Origin: Pedobacter sp.
GTDB lineage: Bacteria; Bacteroidota; Bacteroidia; Sphingobacteriales; Sphingobacteriaceae
Reading direction: 5' to 3'
Assembly (NCBI GenBank): GCA_014378705.1
Contig: JACMND010000050.1
Span: forward strand, 1-64,000
DNA length: 64,000 nt
Part shown: positions 3,307-10,539 of the stretch, in pieces
Layout of the letters: each line of letters opens with the position of its first letter
Numbering within the stretch: position 1 is the first letter of the stretch
Notes under the pieces: model-generated
Databases searched by the model: none
What the model saw: only the letters and a program-made list of their open reading frames with translations
What the model was told of the DNA's origin: nothing
Translations under genes and position numbers: made by a program

Positions 3307-3752
3307 AATCTGAAAACGAAAATACTTTTCATTATTTCGCTTATGCCAGCAACCTGAATACTTCTCTTTTGGAGCAACGGAGTGGTGGCCTGATTTACAA
3401 TCAAATTCAGGGTCGGCTGATAGATTACGGTTTTCGTTTTAACAAAAAAAATACCGATGGCAGTGCAAGGGCAAATATCATCGTTTCTGAATCTGAGGAT
3501 GTTTTTGGAGTACTTTACCTTCTGGATGAAAAATGCCGGGATTCACTTTTAAAATCGGAGTCTAATTATCGTATCATTGAGGTTTCCATTGAAACGAATC
3601 AGGGCAATCAACAGGCGTTTACGTTTATTTCTGATGAAGACGCGGAAGGTATTTATCCTTTACCCGGGTATTTAAAAACAATTGTGGAGGGTGCGAAGGA
3701 ACATAATTTGCCGGCGGAATACATGGATTTTATTAAATCAATGGCTAAGTAA
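3303..3752 (+). CDS. Gamma-glutamylcyclotransferase (AIG2-like) family protein
   Basis: 'FHYFAYASNLN' N-terminus; ATGA overlap with the upstream gene. Confidence 0.8.
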   Translation: MKSENENTFHYFAYASNLNTSLLEQRSGGLIYNQIQGRLIDYGFRFNKKNTDGSARANIIVSESEDVFGVLYLLDEKCRDSLLKSESNYRIIEVSIETNQGNQQAFTFISDEDAEGIYPLPGYLKTIVEGAKEHNLPAEYMDFIKSMAK

Positions 3753-4628
3753 ATTTAGCATCCCGAAATAAAGCAGCATCATAAAGCCACTCAAAAAAGT
3801 CATTCTTGACATATTTTTAAAGTTAGCTTCCTTTTCATCCCGCCATACTTTTACCGCCCAGTTTAAAAAAAGTGCTAAAACCGGTATTACAAAAAATAAA
3901 AAATACCAAAAATACAACGGCATTTCCAGGTTAATCCAGTACATATAAAGCAATAGGGTAGCTAAAACGAATAATAATCCCGAAAAAATGAAAGATCCGC
4001 GTATGCCTAAAAATAAGCTTAATGTTTTATCTCCTCTTTCTGCATCCTCTTTCTGCTGGTAAACTTGTGTTAACGGATAGGTGGCTCCGATAAGGCAGGA
4101 ACAAATCAAGCCTGCAAGAAAAAAATTGATGTTCCAACCTTGTGATATACTTAAGCCTGAAATAGCGGCATAACTACTCCAATATACACAGGCACCCTGA
4201 AAAATAAAAATAATTAGAAAGCTAATTACAGGATATTTTTTCAGCCGGGTAAGCGGATGACTATATAGCTTGGAAAATAACCCATATAAAACAACAGCAA
4301 TAAGCAATTCAACACTTACTACAAGAGCCAATATGATGGCTACCAAATCCAGTAATAAAGAAAAAACGTATAGACTTTTGTCAACCTGCGGCGGATTTTC
4401 AACCAGGGCAATACTGCCTTTATCCTTATCAAAGTAACTATTGTAACCATTGCTTGCCGGATAAACAAAAATATGCCAGATGAAAAAGGTTAGAATCGCG
4501 TTAAGTGTGATAATTTGTGGAGCCTGGCTTAAAGCAAACAAGAATATTGGCAGGAGAAAAACGGAAAAAAAAAAACGCATATGCACCAGTGCAGACCGCG
4601 AAGGGATTAGCGTTTTATATATGTTCAT
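3738..4628 (-). CDS. UbiA-type prenyltransferase family membrane protein
   Basis: Multi-TM; two Asp-rich motifs 'NGYNSYFDKDKGS' and 'KEDAERGDKTLS'. Confidence 0.85.
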   Translation of the reverse strand: MNIYKTLIPSRSALVHMRFFFSVFLLPIFLFALSQAPQIITLNAILTFFIWHIFVYPASNGYNSYFDKDKGSIALVENPPQVDKSLYVFSLLLDLVAIILALVVSVELLIAVVLYGLFSKLYSHPLTRLKKYPVISFLIIFIFQGACVYWSSYAAISGLSISQGWNINFFLAGLICSCLIGATYPLTQVYQQKEDAERGDKTLSLFLGIRGSFIFSGLLFVLATLLLYMYWINLEMPLYFWYFLFFVIPVLALFLNWAVKVWRDEKEANFKNMSRMTFLSGFMMLLYFGMLNLLSH

Positions 4629-4735
4629 GTAATAAAATTAACAATTAATGACTATAATGTTATTTGAAATCAAAACTCATTTCCATAAGCAGCGTTTAAA
4701 CAATTACTTCCCAAAAAACATTACATTAAAAATTT

Positions 4736-5848
4736 ATGAGCAGTTGCATCAGTGCTATTGGTACCGCAAATCCGGAGTATAAAATCAAACAAGAGTTGAT
4801 TTTAAATTTTATGGTTAAAGCTTTTAATCTGGATGAGAACAACGCACTTCGCTTAAAAAAAATATACGATCATTCCGGTATTGAACATCGCTATTCCGTA
4901 GTTCCAGATTTTGGAAATGACGATTTTGGAAATGATATTTTTTTTTCCAAGAATGATGGTTTTGATCCTTTTCCTTCTACTGTTCAACGGTTGCGCTTAT
5001 ACCAGGAAAAAGCCATTAATGTAGCGGTTAATGCGGTTCGTGATTGTTTCAACGAGATGCCGGATGATGCCCTAGCAAAAATTACTCATTTAATTACAGT
5101 TAGTTGCACCGGTATGTATGCTCCCGGAATAGACATTGATCTTGTAGAAAGGCTTGGTTTAAATCGCAGCGTTGAACGTACCTGCATAAATTTTATGGGC
5201 TGTTATGGATCTATTAATGGCCTTAAAGCTGCCGATTATATTTGCAGGGCCAATGAAAACGCCAAAGTTTTGGTGGTTTCTGTTGAACTGTGTACGCTTC
5301 ATTTCCAAAAAGAAAACACACTTGATAATTGGGTCGCGAATTCTTTATTCTCAGATGGTGCGGCGGCAGTTTTTGTTGAAAATCTAAAAAACAGATCCAA
5401 TGTCAATAGCTCCTTGATTCTTAAAAATTTCTATTCAGAATTTGTTCACGAAGCACATGACGAAATGGGGTGGTACGTTGGCGATAACGGGTTTGAAATG
5501 AAGCTCACTTCTAAAGTTTCTAAATTGATTAAGAAACACATCAAACCCATTACTGAACGGTTATTAAACAAAGCAGGGTTTTCTTTTGAGGATATTAACA
5601 CGTTCGCCATTCATCCAGGAGGTAAAAAAATTCTGGAAGCTACAGAAATTGCACTAGAAATTACCGAAAAAGCGAACCGTTTCGCTTACGAAACCCTTCG
5701 TGATTATGGGAATATGTCTTCCGCGACAGTTCTTTATGTTTTGAAAAAGATCTTACAAAGCAATCCGTTAGTTGAACGTGAAAAAATCCTGGCTTTTGCA
5801 TTTGGCCCGGGTTTAACTGTAGAATCAATGATATTAGAACGAGCTTAA
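4736..5848 (+). CDS. Type III polyketide synthase (chalcone/stilbene synthase family)
   Basis: Catalytic triad contexts present: Cys in 'VVSVELCTLHF', His in 'FAIHPGGKKILEA', Asn in 'DYGNMSSATVLYVL'. Confidence 0.95.
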   Translation: MSSCISAIGTANPEYKIKQELILNFMVKAFNLDENNALRLKKIYDHSGIEHRYSVVPDFGNDDFGNDIFFSKNDGFDPFPSTVQRLRLYQEKAINVAVNAVRDCFNEMPDDALAKITHLITVSCTGMYAPGIDIDLVERLGLNRSVERTCINFMGCYGSINGLKAADYICRANENAKVLVVSVELCTLHFQKENTLDNWVANSLFSDGAAAVFVENLKNRSNVNSSLILKNFYSEFVHEAHDEMGWYVGDNGFEMKLTSKVSKLIKKHIKPITERLLNKAGFSFEDINTFAIHPGGKKILEATEIALEITEKANRFAYETLRDYGNMSSATVLYVLKKILQSNPLVEREKILAFAFGPGLTVESMILERA

Positions 5849-5849
5849 G

Positions 5850-6566
5850 ATGCCAAACTTTAATATCCGCAGCAGCGAGCCGGAAATGATGGATGATTTT
5901 AGTCTTGGTCATCAGGTTATAGATCCGATTATGGACGAACTTGAAGTAGTAAATAAACTTTTGGGAGGCTACCGTGTATTTTTTAATGCATTTAATAAGC
6001 TTAAAATTGTTAACGGAACGACCATCAGCGATTGGGGCTGCGGTGGCGGTGATTCGCTAAGGGAAATTGCAAGATGGGCCAGAAAAAATAAGTTAAAAAT
6101 TAATCTCGTTGGGGTTGATGCTACACCTTCCGCAGTTGATTACGCCAGGTTAAAATCAAGGGATTATCCGGAGATAAGCTATCTTCTAGCAGATGTTATG
6201 AGCCTGGAACTCAAAAAAAATCAATTTGATATTGTAATTTCAAGTTTATTTACGCACCATTTTCCTGAACAAGAATGGATAAAGCTGATTCAAAAAATGG
6301 CATTTTGTAGCAAGCATTATGTAATTATAAATGACCTGCACAGGCATTGGTTTGCCTATTATTCTATTGGGATTTTAACCCGGCTGTTTTCACGATCTGA
6401 AATGGTTAAACATGATTCTAAGTTATCCGTATTAAGAAGTTTTAAAAAAACAGACCTGGTAAGGATGATTCAAAAAGCCGGGATTGTAGCTTATGAAATA
6501 AAATGGATGTGGGCTTTCAGGTGGCAGGTATGCCTAATTTTGAACAACAGATCTAAGTCTCTGTGA
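5850..6566 (+). CDS. Class I SAM-dependent methyltransferase
   Basis: 'ISDWGCGGGDSLREIARWA' motif I; starts 2 nt after the T3PKS stop. Confidence 0.9.
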   Translation: MPNFNIRSSEPEMMDDFSLGHQVIDPIMDELEVVNKLLGGYRVFFNAFNKLKIVNGTTISDWGCGGGDSLREIARWARKNKLKINLVGVDATPSAVDYARLKSRDYPEISYLLADVMSLELKKNQFDIVISSLFTHHFPEQEWIKLIQKMAFCSKHYVIINDLHRHWFAYYSIGILTRLFSRSEMVKHDSKLSVLRSFKKTDLVRMIQKAGIVAYEIKWMWAFRWQVCLILNNRSKSL

Positions 6567-7705
6567 ATATGAAGGTAGCTGTAAATTTACCATTACCCGT
6601 CTGCATTATCGGTGGGGGGCTGGCGGGGTTAACCTGTGCTATTTTGTTAAGTAAAAACGGTTTTGCGGTTACTGTTGTAGAAAAAAAGCAAATCCCTTTT
6701 CAGCGGGTATGTGGAGAATATATATCAAACGAGGTTTTAAGTTTTTTAAAATCAATTCATATAAATCTGGAAAACACAAATTCTTCAGAACTCTCAAGGT
6801 TATCTATTAGTTCTGTAACCGGAAAATCCTTAACTCTTCCTTTAAAAATGGGCGGCTTTGGCTTAAGCCGGGATGTATTTGACAATCTTTTGTATCAACA
6901 GGCTAAAGCTAATGGAGTTACTTTTATATTTTCCAAAGCAAATAATATCGCTTTCGCGGACGAACAGTTTACGGTGGACTTGTCAACAGGTGAAGTTTTA
7001 CAGAGCAAAATTGTAATCGCCACTTATGGCAAACGATCTAATATGGATCAAAAGCTTAATAGGGCTTTTTTTTATCAGAGGAGCCCATATCTGGGGGTAA
7101 AATACCACATCAAAACAGATATGGCCAAAGACCTTATCCGGCTTGATATTTTTAAAGGCGGTTATTGTGGTACCTGCAAAATTCAGGATGATCTTTTTAA
7201 TCTGTGTTATCTGTCAGAGACAAAAAATTTAAAGGATTACAGCAGTATCCCGGAAATGGAACAAGGATTACTTTATAAAAATCCGCATCTTAAATATCTT
7301 TTTAATAATTCTGAGTTTGTTTTTGAGAAGCCAGAAGTAATTAACGAAATAAGTTTTAATCGTAAATCTCTTATCGAAGACCACATTCTTTTTTGTGGCG
7401 ATGCTGCCGGGATGATCACTCCGCTTTGTGGAAACGGCATGGCTATGGCAATTCGCTCCGGAAAGATACTTGCTGAAATCATTATTGAAAACGGTCAGGA
7501 AATTTCGCCTTCAAAGCGTTTATTGGTAGAAAGAAACTATAGCTTGAAATGGAAAAATGAGTTTGCACTGCGTTTAAGGACCGGACGATTCATCCAGAAA
7601 TTATTTTTAAACCCGCATTTTAACCGTTTGGGGATTGATATTTTAAAAAAGTCAAAATTTATATCCCGGATGGTAATTAGCAGAACACATGGTAAATCCT
7701 TTTAA
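6563..7705 (+). CDS. FAD-dependent oxidoreductase (geranylgeranyl reductase/monooxygenase-like)
   Basis: 'CIIGGGLAGLTCAILLSKNGFAVTVVEKK' Rossmann; 'LFCGDAAGMITPLCGNGMAMA' GD motif; ATGA overlap with the methyltransferase. Confidence 0.92.
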   Translation: MNMKVAVNLPLPVCIIGGGLAGLTCAILLSKNGFAVTVVEKKQIPFQRVCGEYISNEVLSFLKSIHINLENTNSSELSRLSISSVTGKSLTLPLKMGGFGLSRDVFDNLLYQQAKANGVTFIFSKANNIAFADEQFTVDLSTGEVLQSKIVIATYGKRSNMDQKLNRAFFYQRSPYLGVKYHIKTDMAKDLIRLDIFKGGYCGTCKIQDDLFNLCYLSETKNLKDYSSIPEMEQGLLYKNPHLKYLFNNSEFVFEKPEVINEISFNRKSLIEDHILFCGDAAGMITPLCGNGMAMAIRSGKILAEIIIENGQEISPSKRLLVERNYSLKWKNEFALRLRTGRFIQKLFLNPHFNRLGIDILKKSKFISRMVISRTHGKSF

Positions 7706-7719
7706 TTTATCTTGCGGAA

Positions 7720-8751
7720 ATGAAACTGCGTGTATTAGTTTTTCTTAACGCCCTGGCTGTAGCCATTACCTTGTCAATTGTTAACTATTATTTTCAGCAA
7801 AAGCTGCTTGATATGGTTTTAACATTTTGTATTTCTCTGCTGGTAAGTTTTGTGGTATTTTATTATTTAATTGAACGATTTGTTTACAGTAAAATCAAAC
7901 TGATTCATAAGCTCATACATAGCCTAAAATTAGGCCAGGACTTGAAGGATGCTTTAGGCGAATATGTAAGCCCGGATCCGATTAACGATGTTGAACAGGA
8001 AGTTAAAGAATGGGCCAGGGAAAAAAAGAATGAAATTGATAGTTTAAAAAATCAAGAGAAGTTTAGGCGTGAGTTTTTATCAAATATCTCGCATGAATTT
8101 AAAACGCCGCTATTTGCTATACAAGGATATATTGAAGCCATACAAGATGGTGATACAGATGAAGTTACTACCAAAAAATTTTTGGAGAAAGCCGCCAGAA
8201 ATGTTGACAGGTTAAGTTTTCTCATCAAAGACCTTGACGCAATTTCTAAATTGGAAAGCGGCGAAATCCCCATTAATTACACCAAATTTGATCTTTCTCA
8301 GCTAATTCAGGAAGTGATTGAATCTTTGGAATTAAAAGCAAAAGAATATCAAATCAAGCTACTATTTAAAGATAAATATAGTTCGTCTGCGCTTGTTTGG
8401 GCAGACAGGGAGAAAATCAGACAGGTGTTGGTTAATCTCACAGATAACTCATTTAAGTACGGCAAACTTAATGGAAAAACTTCTTTTAAAATTTTTAGTT
8501 TACACGATCAGGTTTTGGTTGAGATTACGGATGATGGAACTGGAATTGAAGAAAAATATCTTCCCAGGTTGTTTGAGCGGTTTTACCGGACTGATAAAAG
8601 CCGCTCAAGGCAGATTGGTGGTTCCGGTTTGGGACTTGCTATTGTTAAACATATTCTTGAAGCACATCAACAAACAGTAACCGTACGAAGTACTGAAGGA
8701 ATCGGCTCAAGTTTTGCTTTTACACTTGCTAAAGCAGGCGTAAACAGATGA
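7720..8751 (+). CDS. Membrane sensor histidine kinase (PhoR-like)
   Basis: Two N-terminal TM helices; H-box 'FLSNISHEFKTPLFAIQGY'; N/G boxes; 'GGSGLGLAIVKHI'. Confidence 0.92.
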   Translation: MKLRVLVFLNALAVAITLSIVNYYFQQKLLDMVLTFCISLLVSFVVFYYLIERFVYSKIKLIHKLIHSLKLGQDLKDALGEYVSPDPINDVEQEVKEWAREKKNEIDSLKNQEKFRREFLSNISHEFKTPLFAIQGYIEAIQDGDTDEVTTKKFLEKAARNVDRLSFLIKDLDAISKLESGEIPINYTKFDLSQLIQEVIESLELKAKEYQIKLLFKDKYSSSALVWADREKIRQVLVNLTDNSFKYGKLNGKTSFKIFSLHDQVLVEITDDGTGIEEKYLPRLFERFYRTDKSRSRQIGGSGLGLAIVKHILEAHQQTVTVRSTEGIGSSFAFTLAKAGVNR

Positions 8752-8812
8752 TGTTTATTTTAAAATAGAATTAACATTGATATATTAGCTTTACACCTGA
8801 AAAGATGCATTC

Positions 8813-9460
8813 ATGTCAATAAATAATATTTTTCAGTACTTCATTCCTAAAGACAAAAAGTTTTTTCCCCTTTTTGAGCAGGATAGTGCCAACCTGATCA
8901 AGCTTGGCCAAAAGCTGGTAGAAGCCGTCAATACAGAAGATATTAATACCCGAAAAAAAATCTTTAAAGAAATTGAAGACCTGGAGCATATTGGTGATGA
9001 AATTACCCATCAGATACACCTGGAGCTGGGTAAAAATTTTATCACACCATTTGATAGGGAGGATATTCATCGCCTGGCATCAGCCCTTGATGATATAGCT
9101 GACTACATACATGGCTCCGCCTCAAGGATGAACCTTTATAATGTTGACCAAATAACACCGCCGATAATTGAACTTTCAGCCTTAATTTTACAGGCTGTTC
9201 AGGAACTTGATAAAGCAATTAATGAGTTGCGTAATTTAAAAAACATCCGCCTGATTGCGGATGCCTGTGTACGTATAAACAGCATTGAAAACCAGGCGGA
9301 TTACGTTTTTGATACTGCGGTTGGTCAGCTTTTTAGCTATGAAAAAGATGCCGTTAACCTGATAAAATATAAAGAAGTTTTTTCAGCTTTAGAAACTGCA
9401 ACGGATATGTGCGAAGATGCGGCAAACGTACTGGAATCAATTTTGGTTAAACACGCCTAA
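8813..9460 (+). CDS. DUF47 / PhoU-like phosphate transport regulator
   Basis: 'IEDLEHIGDEITHQIHLELGKNFITPFDREDIHRLASALDDIADYI', followed by a PiT transporter. Confidence 0.93.
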   Translation: MSINNIFQYFIPKDKKFFPLFEQDSANLIKLGQKLVEAVNTEDINTRKKIFKEIEDLEHIGDEITHQIHLELGKNFITPFDREDIHRLASALDDIADYIHGSASRMNLYNVDQITPPIIELSALILQAVQELDKAINELRNLKNIRLIADACVRINSIENQADYVFDTAVGQLFSYEKDAVNLIKYKEVFSALETATDMCEDAANVLESILVKHA

Positions 9461-9483
9461 CTGCATTTAGCTTACATCGTTTT

Positions 9484-10539
9484 ATGAGTTTTACTTTATT
9501 AATTGTTATAATCATACTGGCCCTGGTATTTGATTATATCAATGGTTTTCATGATGCCGCCAATTCAATCGCAACCGTTGTTTCTACCAAAGTTTTAACA
9601 CCTTTTCAGGCGGTGCTATGGGCCGCGTTCTTCAACTTTCTGGCTTATTGGATTTTCAACTTAAACGTAGCCGATACCGTAGCCAAAACAGCGGATACCA
9701 TGAATATAAATCTTACAGTGATTCTGGCAGGTGTAATAGCTGCCATTTGCTGGAATTTATTAACATGGTGGTTTGGCGTTCCATCCAGCTCATCACATAC
9801 TTTAATTGGTGGTTTTGCCGGAGCGGCACTTGCTCATGGTGGTTTCGATGTGATTAATTTGGGGATTATTGGTAAAGTGGCTGCCTTTATAGTAATTGCT
9901 CCGATTGTGGGAATGATTATAGCCTACAGCATTACTGTTCTCATTGTTAACATTTGTCGTTACTCAAACCCAAGCCGTGCAGAATGGTGGTTTCGCAAAT
10001 TGCAGCTTGTTTCTTCGGCCCTTTTTAGTTTAGGGCATGGTGGTAACGACGCTCAAAAAGTAATGGGAATAATTGCTGCGGCAGTAATTGTATACTTAAA
10101 AGATGCCAACTTAAACATGGCTGATATCCCAAACTGGCTGCATGTTACCTACACCGTAATCAATGGCAAGGTTAGTATAACCGATATCCCGGAGTGGATA
10201 CCGATTGCCTGTTATACCTCTATCGCTGCCGGAACCATGAGCGGTGGCTGGAAAATCGTAAAAACTATGGGCACTAAGATTACAAAAGTTACTCCGCTGG
10301 AAGGCGTTGCCGCCGAAACATCCGGAGCCATTACCTTATTTATGACTGAATATTTTAAAATACCTGTATCAACAACGCACACCATAACCGGTTCTATTAT
10401 TGGGGTTGGATTAGCCAAAAGGGTTTCAGCGGTACGTTGGGGAGTCACTGTTAGCTTGCTTTGGGCTTGGATATTGACTATTCCAGTTTCCGCGGCTTTG
10501 GCTGCCATATTATATTTTATCCTAAGTATTTTTTTGTAA
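9484..10539 (+). CDS. Inorganic phosphate transporter, PiT family
   Basis: 'DYINGFHDAANSIATVVSTKVLTPFQAVLWAAFFNF', 'GVPSSSSHTLIGG', 'VSTTHTITGSIIGVG'. Confidence 0.96.
   Translation: MSFTLLIVIIILALVFDYINGFHDAANSIATVVSTKVLTPFQAVLWAAFFNFLAYWIFNLNVADTVAKTADTMNINLTVILAGVIAAICWNLLTWWFGVPSSSSHTLIGGFAGAALAHGGFDVINLGIIGKVAAFIVIAPIVGMIIAYSITVLIVNICRYSNPSRAEWWFRKLQLVSSALFSLGHGGNDAQKVMGIIAAAVIVYLKDANLNMADIPNWLHVTYTVINGKVSITDIPEWIPIACYTSIAAGTMSGGWKIVKTMGTKITKVTPLEGVAAETSGAITLFMTEYFKIPVSTTHTITGSIIGVGLAKRVSAVRWGVTVSLLWAWILTIPVSAALAAILYFILSIFL

Follow-up and report, generated by a model that had tools for sequence, protein, structure and literature searches.

The closest described precedent for the locus reported here is the agqABCD cluster of Actinoplanes missouriensis. 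According to excerpts of its published descriptions, agqABCD produces alkyl-O-dihydrogeranyl-methoxyhydroquinones, an alkylresorcinol being prenylated and hydroxylated on the way (PMC10896814; PMC7692728). In planctomycetes, type III polyketide synthases (T3PKSs) are encoded in operons of the order methyltransferase (MT), FAD oxidoreductase (FAD), T3PKS, and one report states that pentadecyl- and heptadecylresorcinols are formed when C. glutamicum is the host of these enzymes (PMC10896814). SrsA belongs to the PKS10/11 clade, while Pks18 belongs to another (PMC8086630). T3PKS genes have also been reported from all Mucilaginibacter species (PMC9843747) and from Fulvivirga (PMC12565237), with no product given in either case, and the literature that we found names no product of any Bacteroidota homolog. 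Such genes are present in 134 of the 297 Bacteroidota genomes sampled by us.

We analysed a stretch of 64,000 nucleotides of Pedobacter sp. DNA (contig JACMND010000050.1), referred to as the window. It holds genes for a T3PKS, an MT, a probable FAD hydroxylase and a UbiA-type protein together, which is the gene content of an agq-type cluster. We consider it reasonably likely that a single pathway, encoded by the four genes, leads from an alkylresorcinol to a UbiA-modified (prenylated) phenolic membrane lipid. The features are as follows:

3738–4628, minus strand: UbiA-superfamily integral membrane protein, 296 aa (PF01040, AlphaFold, Foldseek, motifs over 117 loci)
4629–4735, no strand: UbiA/T3PKS divergent intergenic region, 107 nt, presumed to contain both promoters (sequence; near-relative comparison)
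4736–5848, plus strand: T3PKS, 370 aa (Pfam, alignment with Pks18)
Key codons of the T3PKS: C156 at 5201–5203, H293 at 5612–5614, N326 at 5711–5713, W246 at 5471–5473
5850–6566, plus strand: class I SAM methyltransferase (MT), 238 aa (Pfam; PRK06202-like, below cut-off)
6563–7705, plus strand: FAD-dependent oxidoreductase, probable aromatic-ring monooxygenase (start GTG 6563 or ATG 6569)
7720–8751, plus strand: PhoR/PnpS-like sensor histidine kinase, beginning 14 nt past the FAD gene
8813–9460, plus strand: PhoU-related (DUF47/PhoU_div) protein, one of the linked phosphate genes
9484–10539, plus strand: Pit/PHO4 phosphate transporter, one of the linked phosphate genes

When the open reading frames were re-read, the UbiA gene was found to be divergent from T3PKS-MT-FAD by 107 nt, as a preliminary description of this DNA had it. 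T3PKS, MT and FAD lie in tandem, and 1 nt separates the T3PKS stop codon (5846–5848) from the MT start (5850). The MT/FAD overlap had been described as ATGA; the letters at 6563–6566 are in fact GTGA, and the FAD gene could equally well start from the GTG at 6563 or from an ATG in the same frame at 6569. A Pfam domain scan of the window proteins supports all four assignments. Scanning 4629–4735 for sigma-70-type promoters gave no excess over shuffled sequence. The short element TTTAGTAA precedes both divergent start codons in several near relatives and is less clear in the window; these elements are perhaps part of paired promoters.

Related loci, 80 in number, were taken from a scan of GTDB genomes, and their members were identified by gene calls and profile searches. 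All four genes are found in 62 of them and PKS, MT and FAD in 11 more, the remainder being partial sets, some on cut contigs. UbiA is thus kept beside the T3PKS in relatives, a point on which the preliminary description had made its proposal depend. Since the neighbourhood is kept over 80 loci and many genera, chance co-location is ruled out. In distant lineages (L144–L150, L152) the genes form a same-strand operon UbiA-PKS-MT-FAD in which neighbouring frames overlap in several cases, UbiA and PKS by 8 nt in L146 and L147; the order in L151 is PKS-MT-FAD-UbiA and in Mucilaginibacter T3PKS-FAD-MT. The order differs among lineages with the set intact, therefore the arrangement was reshuffled while the genes stayed together. 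The FAD frame of L148 scores weakly, so that another kind of flavoprotein may be encoded there. In 29 loci the T3PKS is preceded by a YceI-like gene, an arrangement seen in Mucilaginibacter; proteins of the YceI family are known to bind polyisoprenoids.

Co-occurrence, too, bears out UbiA as a pathway member. Among 60 relatives, UbiA orthologs are present in 27/27 genomes with a T3PKS ortholog (identity at least 40%) as compared to 1/33 of the others (Fisher p 3e-16, ignoring the kinship of the genomes tested), and four genomes of the same genus that have no T3PKS have no UbiA either. In the 297 Bacteroidota genomes, UbiA matches at E<=1e-50 occur in 21, each of which has this T3PKS as well, and UbiA is found in 21 of the 24 with a T3PKS at E<=5e-80 (p 2.5e-29, with a cut-off picked after the data were seen and genomes that are related and not independent). 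Hitch-hiking does not account for this, because both genes are present also where they are unlinked: 335 kb apart in G209, 720 kb apart in G229 and at separate sites in Arcticibacter and Hymenobacter. On the T3PKS tree, the presence of UbiA needs 3 changes versus 10.8 in shuffles, where the Psychrobacter T3PKS was counted as UbiA-less on the basis of the genes around it on the plasmid alone, and the rows of family f43, whose weak UbiA matches (25–31% identity) lie away from its T3PKS, were counted as having no UbiA ortholog. A single gain with two losses would be consistent with this, one loss in the Psychrobacter plasmid copy and one in a Mucilaginibacter subgroup.

The Psychrobacter copy is on a plasmid of the Antarctic Psychrobacter urativorans (L161:6001–8824). 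Its T3PKS is 45% identical to that of the window and nested among Bacteroidota enzymes, and its FAD and MT genes are on the strand opposite to the T3PKS; a transfer between phyla is probable from this placement. The 'hypothetical' gene adjoining the plasmid T3PKS was considered as a UbiA and is not one, and a plasmid search with UbiA gave no match. In the Mucilaginibacter subgroup (L034:3754–5238; also L029, L032, L036, L038) the order is YceI-PKS-FAD-MT with no UbiA ortholog, and L034 has an amine-oxidase/phytoene-desaturase-like gene at the usual place of UbiA.

The window UbiA is a clear family member by Pfam (PF01040, 2.4e-21, 76.6 bits against a cut-off of 34.2). Its AlphaFold model has a pLDDT of 94.8, and the top Foldseek matches are DGGGP synthase (6m31/7bpu), Archaeoglobus UbiA (4tq3) and UBIAD1 (8djk); a search of PDB sequences with the UbiA profile gave no match. 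The preliminary description had pointed to two Asp-rich motifs. The first one holds, as N60xxN63xxxD67xD69 (N63-x3-D67-x-D69), while the second reads TQxYQ191xxED195, i.e. Q191-x3-D195 and not DxxxD, in 117/117 loci. More specifically, the 117 ortholog loci, some of them sampled twice, all have N60, N63, D67, D69, Q144, Q188, Q191 and D195. In E. coli UbiA and MenA the residue corresponding to Q191 is Asp, the first one of their second motif; two pairwise alignments and MAFFT agree on this placement, although the hhalign scores are weak. Because of this invariant Gln, the UbiA proteins stand as a distinct clade by sequence, and with QxxxD as second motif their diphosphate chemistry may differ. 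Prenylation is the likeliest activity, a predicted one. A role as the menaquinone enzyme was rejected, as a different UbiA-family protein of this genome, MqnP-like and encoded next to ubiE, would fill that role. Further UbiA-family genes in the genome are EboC, a heme-O-synthase-like one (judged by eye) and a fifth UbiA-like one. The EboC-type homolog (L105, contig C132) lies beside dehydroquinate-synthase-like and TatD/amidohydrolase-like genes, which make up an ebo cluster. The fifth protein (L106, contig C178) is below the Pfam cut-off, has no close family and adjoins response-regulator and metallophosphoesterase-like genes.

The altered motif raises the question whether UbiA prenylates at all. 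The core product could be an alkylresorcinol or alkylquinone, methylated and hydroxylated as in srs or hid, that is used as such, with UbiA alongside as a non-prenylating protein, for example an altered enzyme acting on another lipid. Apart from the Gln that invariably replaces the leading Asp of the second motif, this would fit the five Mucilaginibacter genomes that keep PKS-MT-FAD and have no UbiA, so that UbiA is dispensable for the core, and also the Planctomycetota and cyanobacterial cores, which are described as usually having no UbiA (PMC10896814, PMC8086630). However, strict co-occurrence and the overlapping operons of distant lineages speak against a non-prenylating bystander, as do the N-x3-D of the first motif and D195, retained in all loci, and the YceI-like partner gene. 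We regard this alternative as unlikely.

A UbiA-prenylated polyketide quinone could also serve as a respiratory electron carrier, i.e. an auxiliary lipoquinone. Hydroxylase, methyltransferase and UbiA together follow the logic of ubiquinone synthesis. There is a parallel in M. tuberculosis, whose alkylquinones carry electrons in oxygen-poor niches, as stated in a later paper (PMC10896814 citing Anand 2015). Against this, menaquinone has its own UbiA/UbiE pair in the genome, no respiratory gene is linked to the cluster and several genomes of the same genus do not have the module, which makes a respiratory function quite improbable.

Regarding the tailoring enzymes, the MT matches Methyltransf_25 (Pfam, 8e-15) and is homologous over its full length to the MT of a Paludisphaera MT-FAD-T3PKS operon (24% identity). 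The FAD protein matches FAD_binding_3 (Pfam, 1.7e-11), is 23% identical to its counterpart in that operon and scores under the cut-off of every curated NCBIfam model listed. Its predicted model (pLDDT 88) has flavin halogenases, squalene epoxidase and 3-hydroxybenzoate 6-hydroxylase as nearest folds. A motif GGYCG occupies the place of halogenase WxWxIP and reductase YxWxFP, and for this reason a ring hydroxylase is likeliest; the protein is probably an aromatic-ring hydroxylase/monooxygenase. Two other functions were rejected. A geranylgeranyl/prenyl reductase does not agree with the TIGR02032 score (107.1 bits, cut-off 158.8) and with GGYCGxxKI at the YxWxFP-type motif in orthologs. A flavin-dependent halogenase, although among the nearest solved folds, would need WxWxIP, which is missing: CmlS WVWMIP aligned to GYCGVSKI.

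The T3PKS has both chalcone/stilbene synthase domains (PF00195, N-terminal, 6.9e-29; PF02797, C-terminal, 1.8e-23). Its catalytic triad is intact: C156, H293 and N326 align with C175, H313 and N346 of Pks18 and are invariant in 142 sequences. The contexts FAIHPGG (H293) and DYGNMSS (N326) had been recognized correctly, whereas ELCTLHF had been taken for that of the catalytic Cys, which in the Pks18 alignment is C156 in NFMGCYGS. The cysteine of ELCTLHF is C186; it is aligned with C205 of Pks18 (1ted), beside the starter pocket, and the 1tee chain has Phe at this position. W246 is invariant (142/142), and its column holds Trp in Pks11 and Steely1 and L266 in the pyrone synthase Pks18. The ArsB W281/ArsC G284 position acts as a switch between alkylresorcinol and alkylpyrone according to reviews and mutant work (PMC6274091; PMC5916927). 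W246 was equated with ArsB W281 through Pks11 and a W/M spacing of 9, and the W246–M255 spacing is the same as ArsC 284–293. T125, A129 and C186 are identical to the Pks18 tunnel residues T144, A148 and C205, while N208 and A209 are replaced by H189 and F190. From W246, the Pks18-like T125/A129/C186 and the products of the planctomycete enzymes, a long-chain alkylresorcinol is the expected product, H189/F190 being different. That the T3PKS makes alkylpyrones which are then methylated and oxidised is very improbable: Pks18 ranks with the top-scoring solved structures, and its T144/A148/C205 recur in the window enzyme, but it has Leu where all 142 sequences have Trp, and a FAD ring hydroxylase better matches a phenol. 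A T3PKS with Phe instead of Trp246 was seen in two Flavobacterial/other Bacteroidota clusters (L158:4703–10199 and L157:5220–10540), where FAD-MT-T3PKS is followed by genes for a FabA-like dehydratase, a ketosynthase, an ACP and a phosphopantetheinyl transferase.

A methylated, oxidised phenolic lipid, the class proposed in the preliminary description, is well supported, as is the place of UbiA in the pathway. The data show which genes belong together, the enzyme classes and the intact T3PKS triad. For the prenylated lipid that we prefer, the T3PKS would take a long fatty acyl thioester and extend it with three malonyl-CoA to a putative tetraketide. C2–C7 aldol ring closure by the same enzyme would give a 5-alkylresorcinol (or alkylresorcylic acid), which is the predicted ring type. 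Ring methylation by the MT and hydroxylation by the FAD monooxygenase, tentatively in this order, might then lead to a methoxy- or methyl-hydroquinone that could be oxidised to the quinone state. Membrane-bound UbiA would add a prenyl group from a presumed prenyl donor by C- or O-attachment, and the final product would be a two-tailed membrane meroterpenoid. What is conserved across Bacteroidota is one T3PKS clade tied to a fixed tailoring set, with a predicted ring type and a predicted UbiA step.

A PhoR-like kinase is found downstream in 54/79 loci, mostly 8–20 nt past the last cluster gene, be it FAD or MT. Nearly all of these loci have PhoU- and/or Pit-type genes behind the kinase. The kinase-PhoU-Pit arrangement (7720–10539 in the window) is common to most Sphingobacteriaceae loci. 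The best models for the window kinase are PnpS (240.7, cut-off 400) and phoR (222.1, cut-off 334); being under both cut-offs it can be called no more than PhoR-like, and its neighbours are of the PhoU and Pit types. The kinase was rejected as a part of the pathway since it persists in genomes that do not have the module: the kinase group stays beside RlmL in G003 and G004, and it stays in G013. The four-gene module therefore looks like a discrete insert with a link to phosphate genes. The kinase is probably co-transcribed with the FAD gene and stands outside the chemistry. Judging from the spacing, the core genes of most Sphingobacteriaceae appear to be co-transcribed with the PhoR-like kinase, usually together with a phosphate transporter, which makes phosphate-dependent expression of the cluster a plausible hypothesis. 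A link between phenolic lipid and phosphate supply would suggest what purpose such lipids may serve, as they have no established role in most bacteria. Carried further, T3PKS and the QxxxD UbiA clade might make a lineage-wide Bacteroidota membrane meroterpenoid, co-regulated with phosphate sensing, in which a phosphorus-free phenolic lipid replaces phospholipid at low phosphate; we consider this extended proposal doubtful.

The srsABC cluster of Streptomyces griseus, the model chosen in the preliminary description, shares the core enzyme set with the window, i.e. T3PKS, methyltransferase and flavoprotein hydroxylase leading to methylated phenolic lipids/quinones. It has three genes and, unlike the window, no UbiA, and it is not the closest precedent. 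hidABC (cyanobacterial hierridins) and the planctomycete operons likewise combine a T3PKS with an MT and an FAD oxidoreductase. The Paludisphaera operon has Trp246 in common with the window, its T3PKS being 38% identical as compared to 24% for MT and 23% for FAD. The order is MT-FAD-T3PKS in hid and planctomycetes, T3PKS-MT-FAD in the window and T3PKS-FAD-MT in Mucilaginibacter, and, unlike the window, the hid and planctomycete operons usually have no UbiA, with a prenyltransferase in one Raphidiopsis cluster. The loseolamycin locus of Micromonospora endolithica resembles the window in having a T3PKS with adjoining methyltransferase and UbiA-family genes, and differs in having an acyl-CoA dehydrogenase instead of the FAD monooxygenase (PMC7587189). 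agqABCD, likened here from excerpts of published descriptions, has a T3PKS and three tailoring genes, as does the window; it is actinobacterial, and those excerpts do not mention phosphate genes. AgqD is presumably UbiA-type. With agqABCD as precedent, a T3PKS that acts together with prenylation and hydroxylation, the gene set is not unprecedented, and by analogy the cluster of the window probably operates in the same way as agq.
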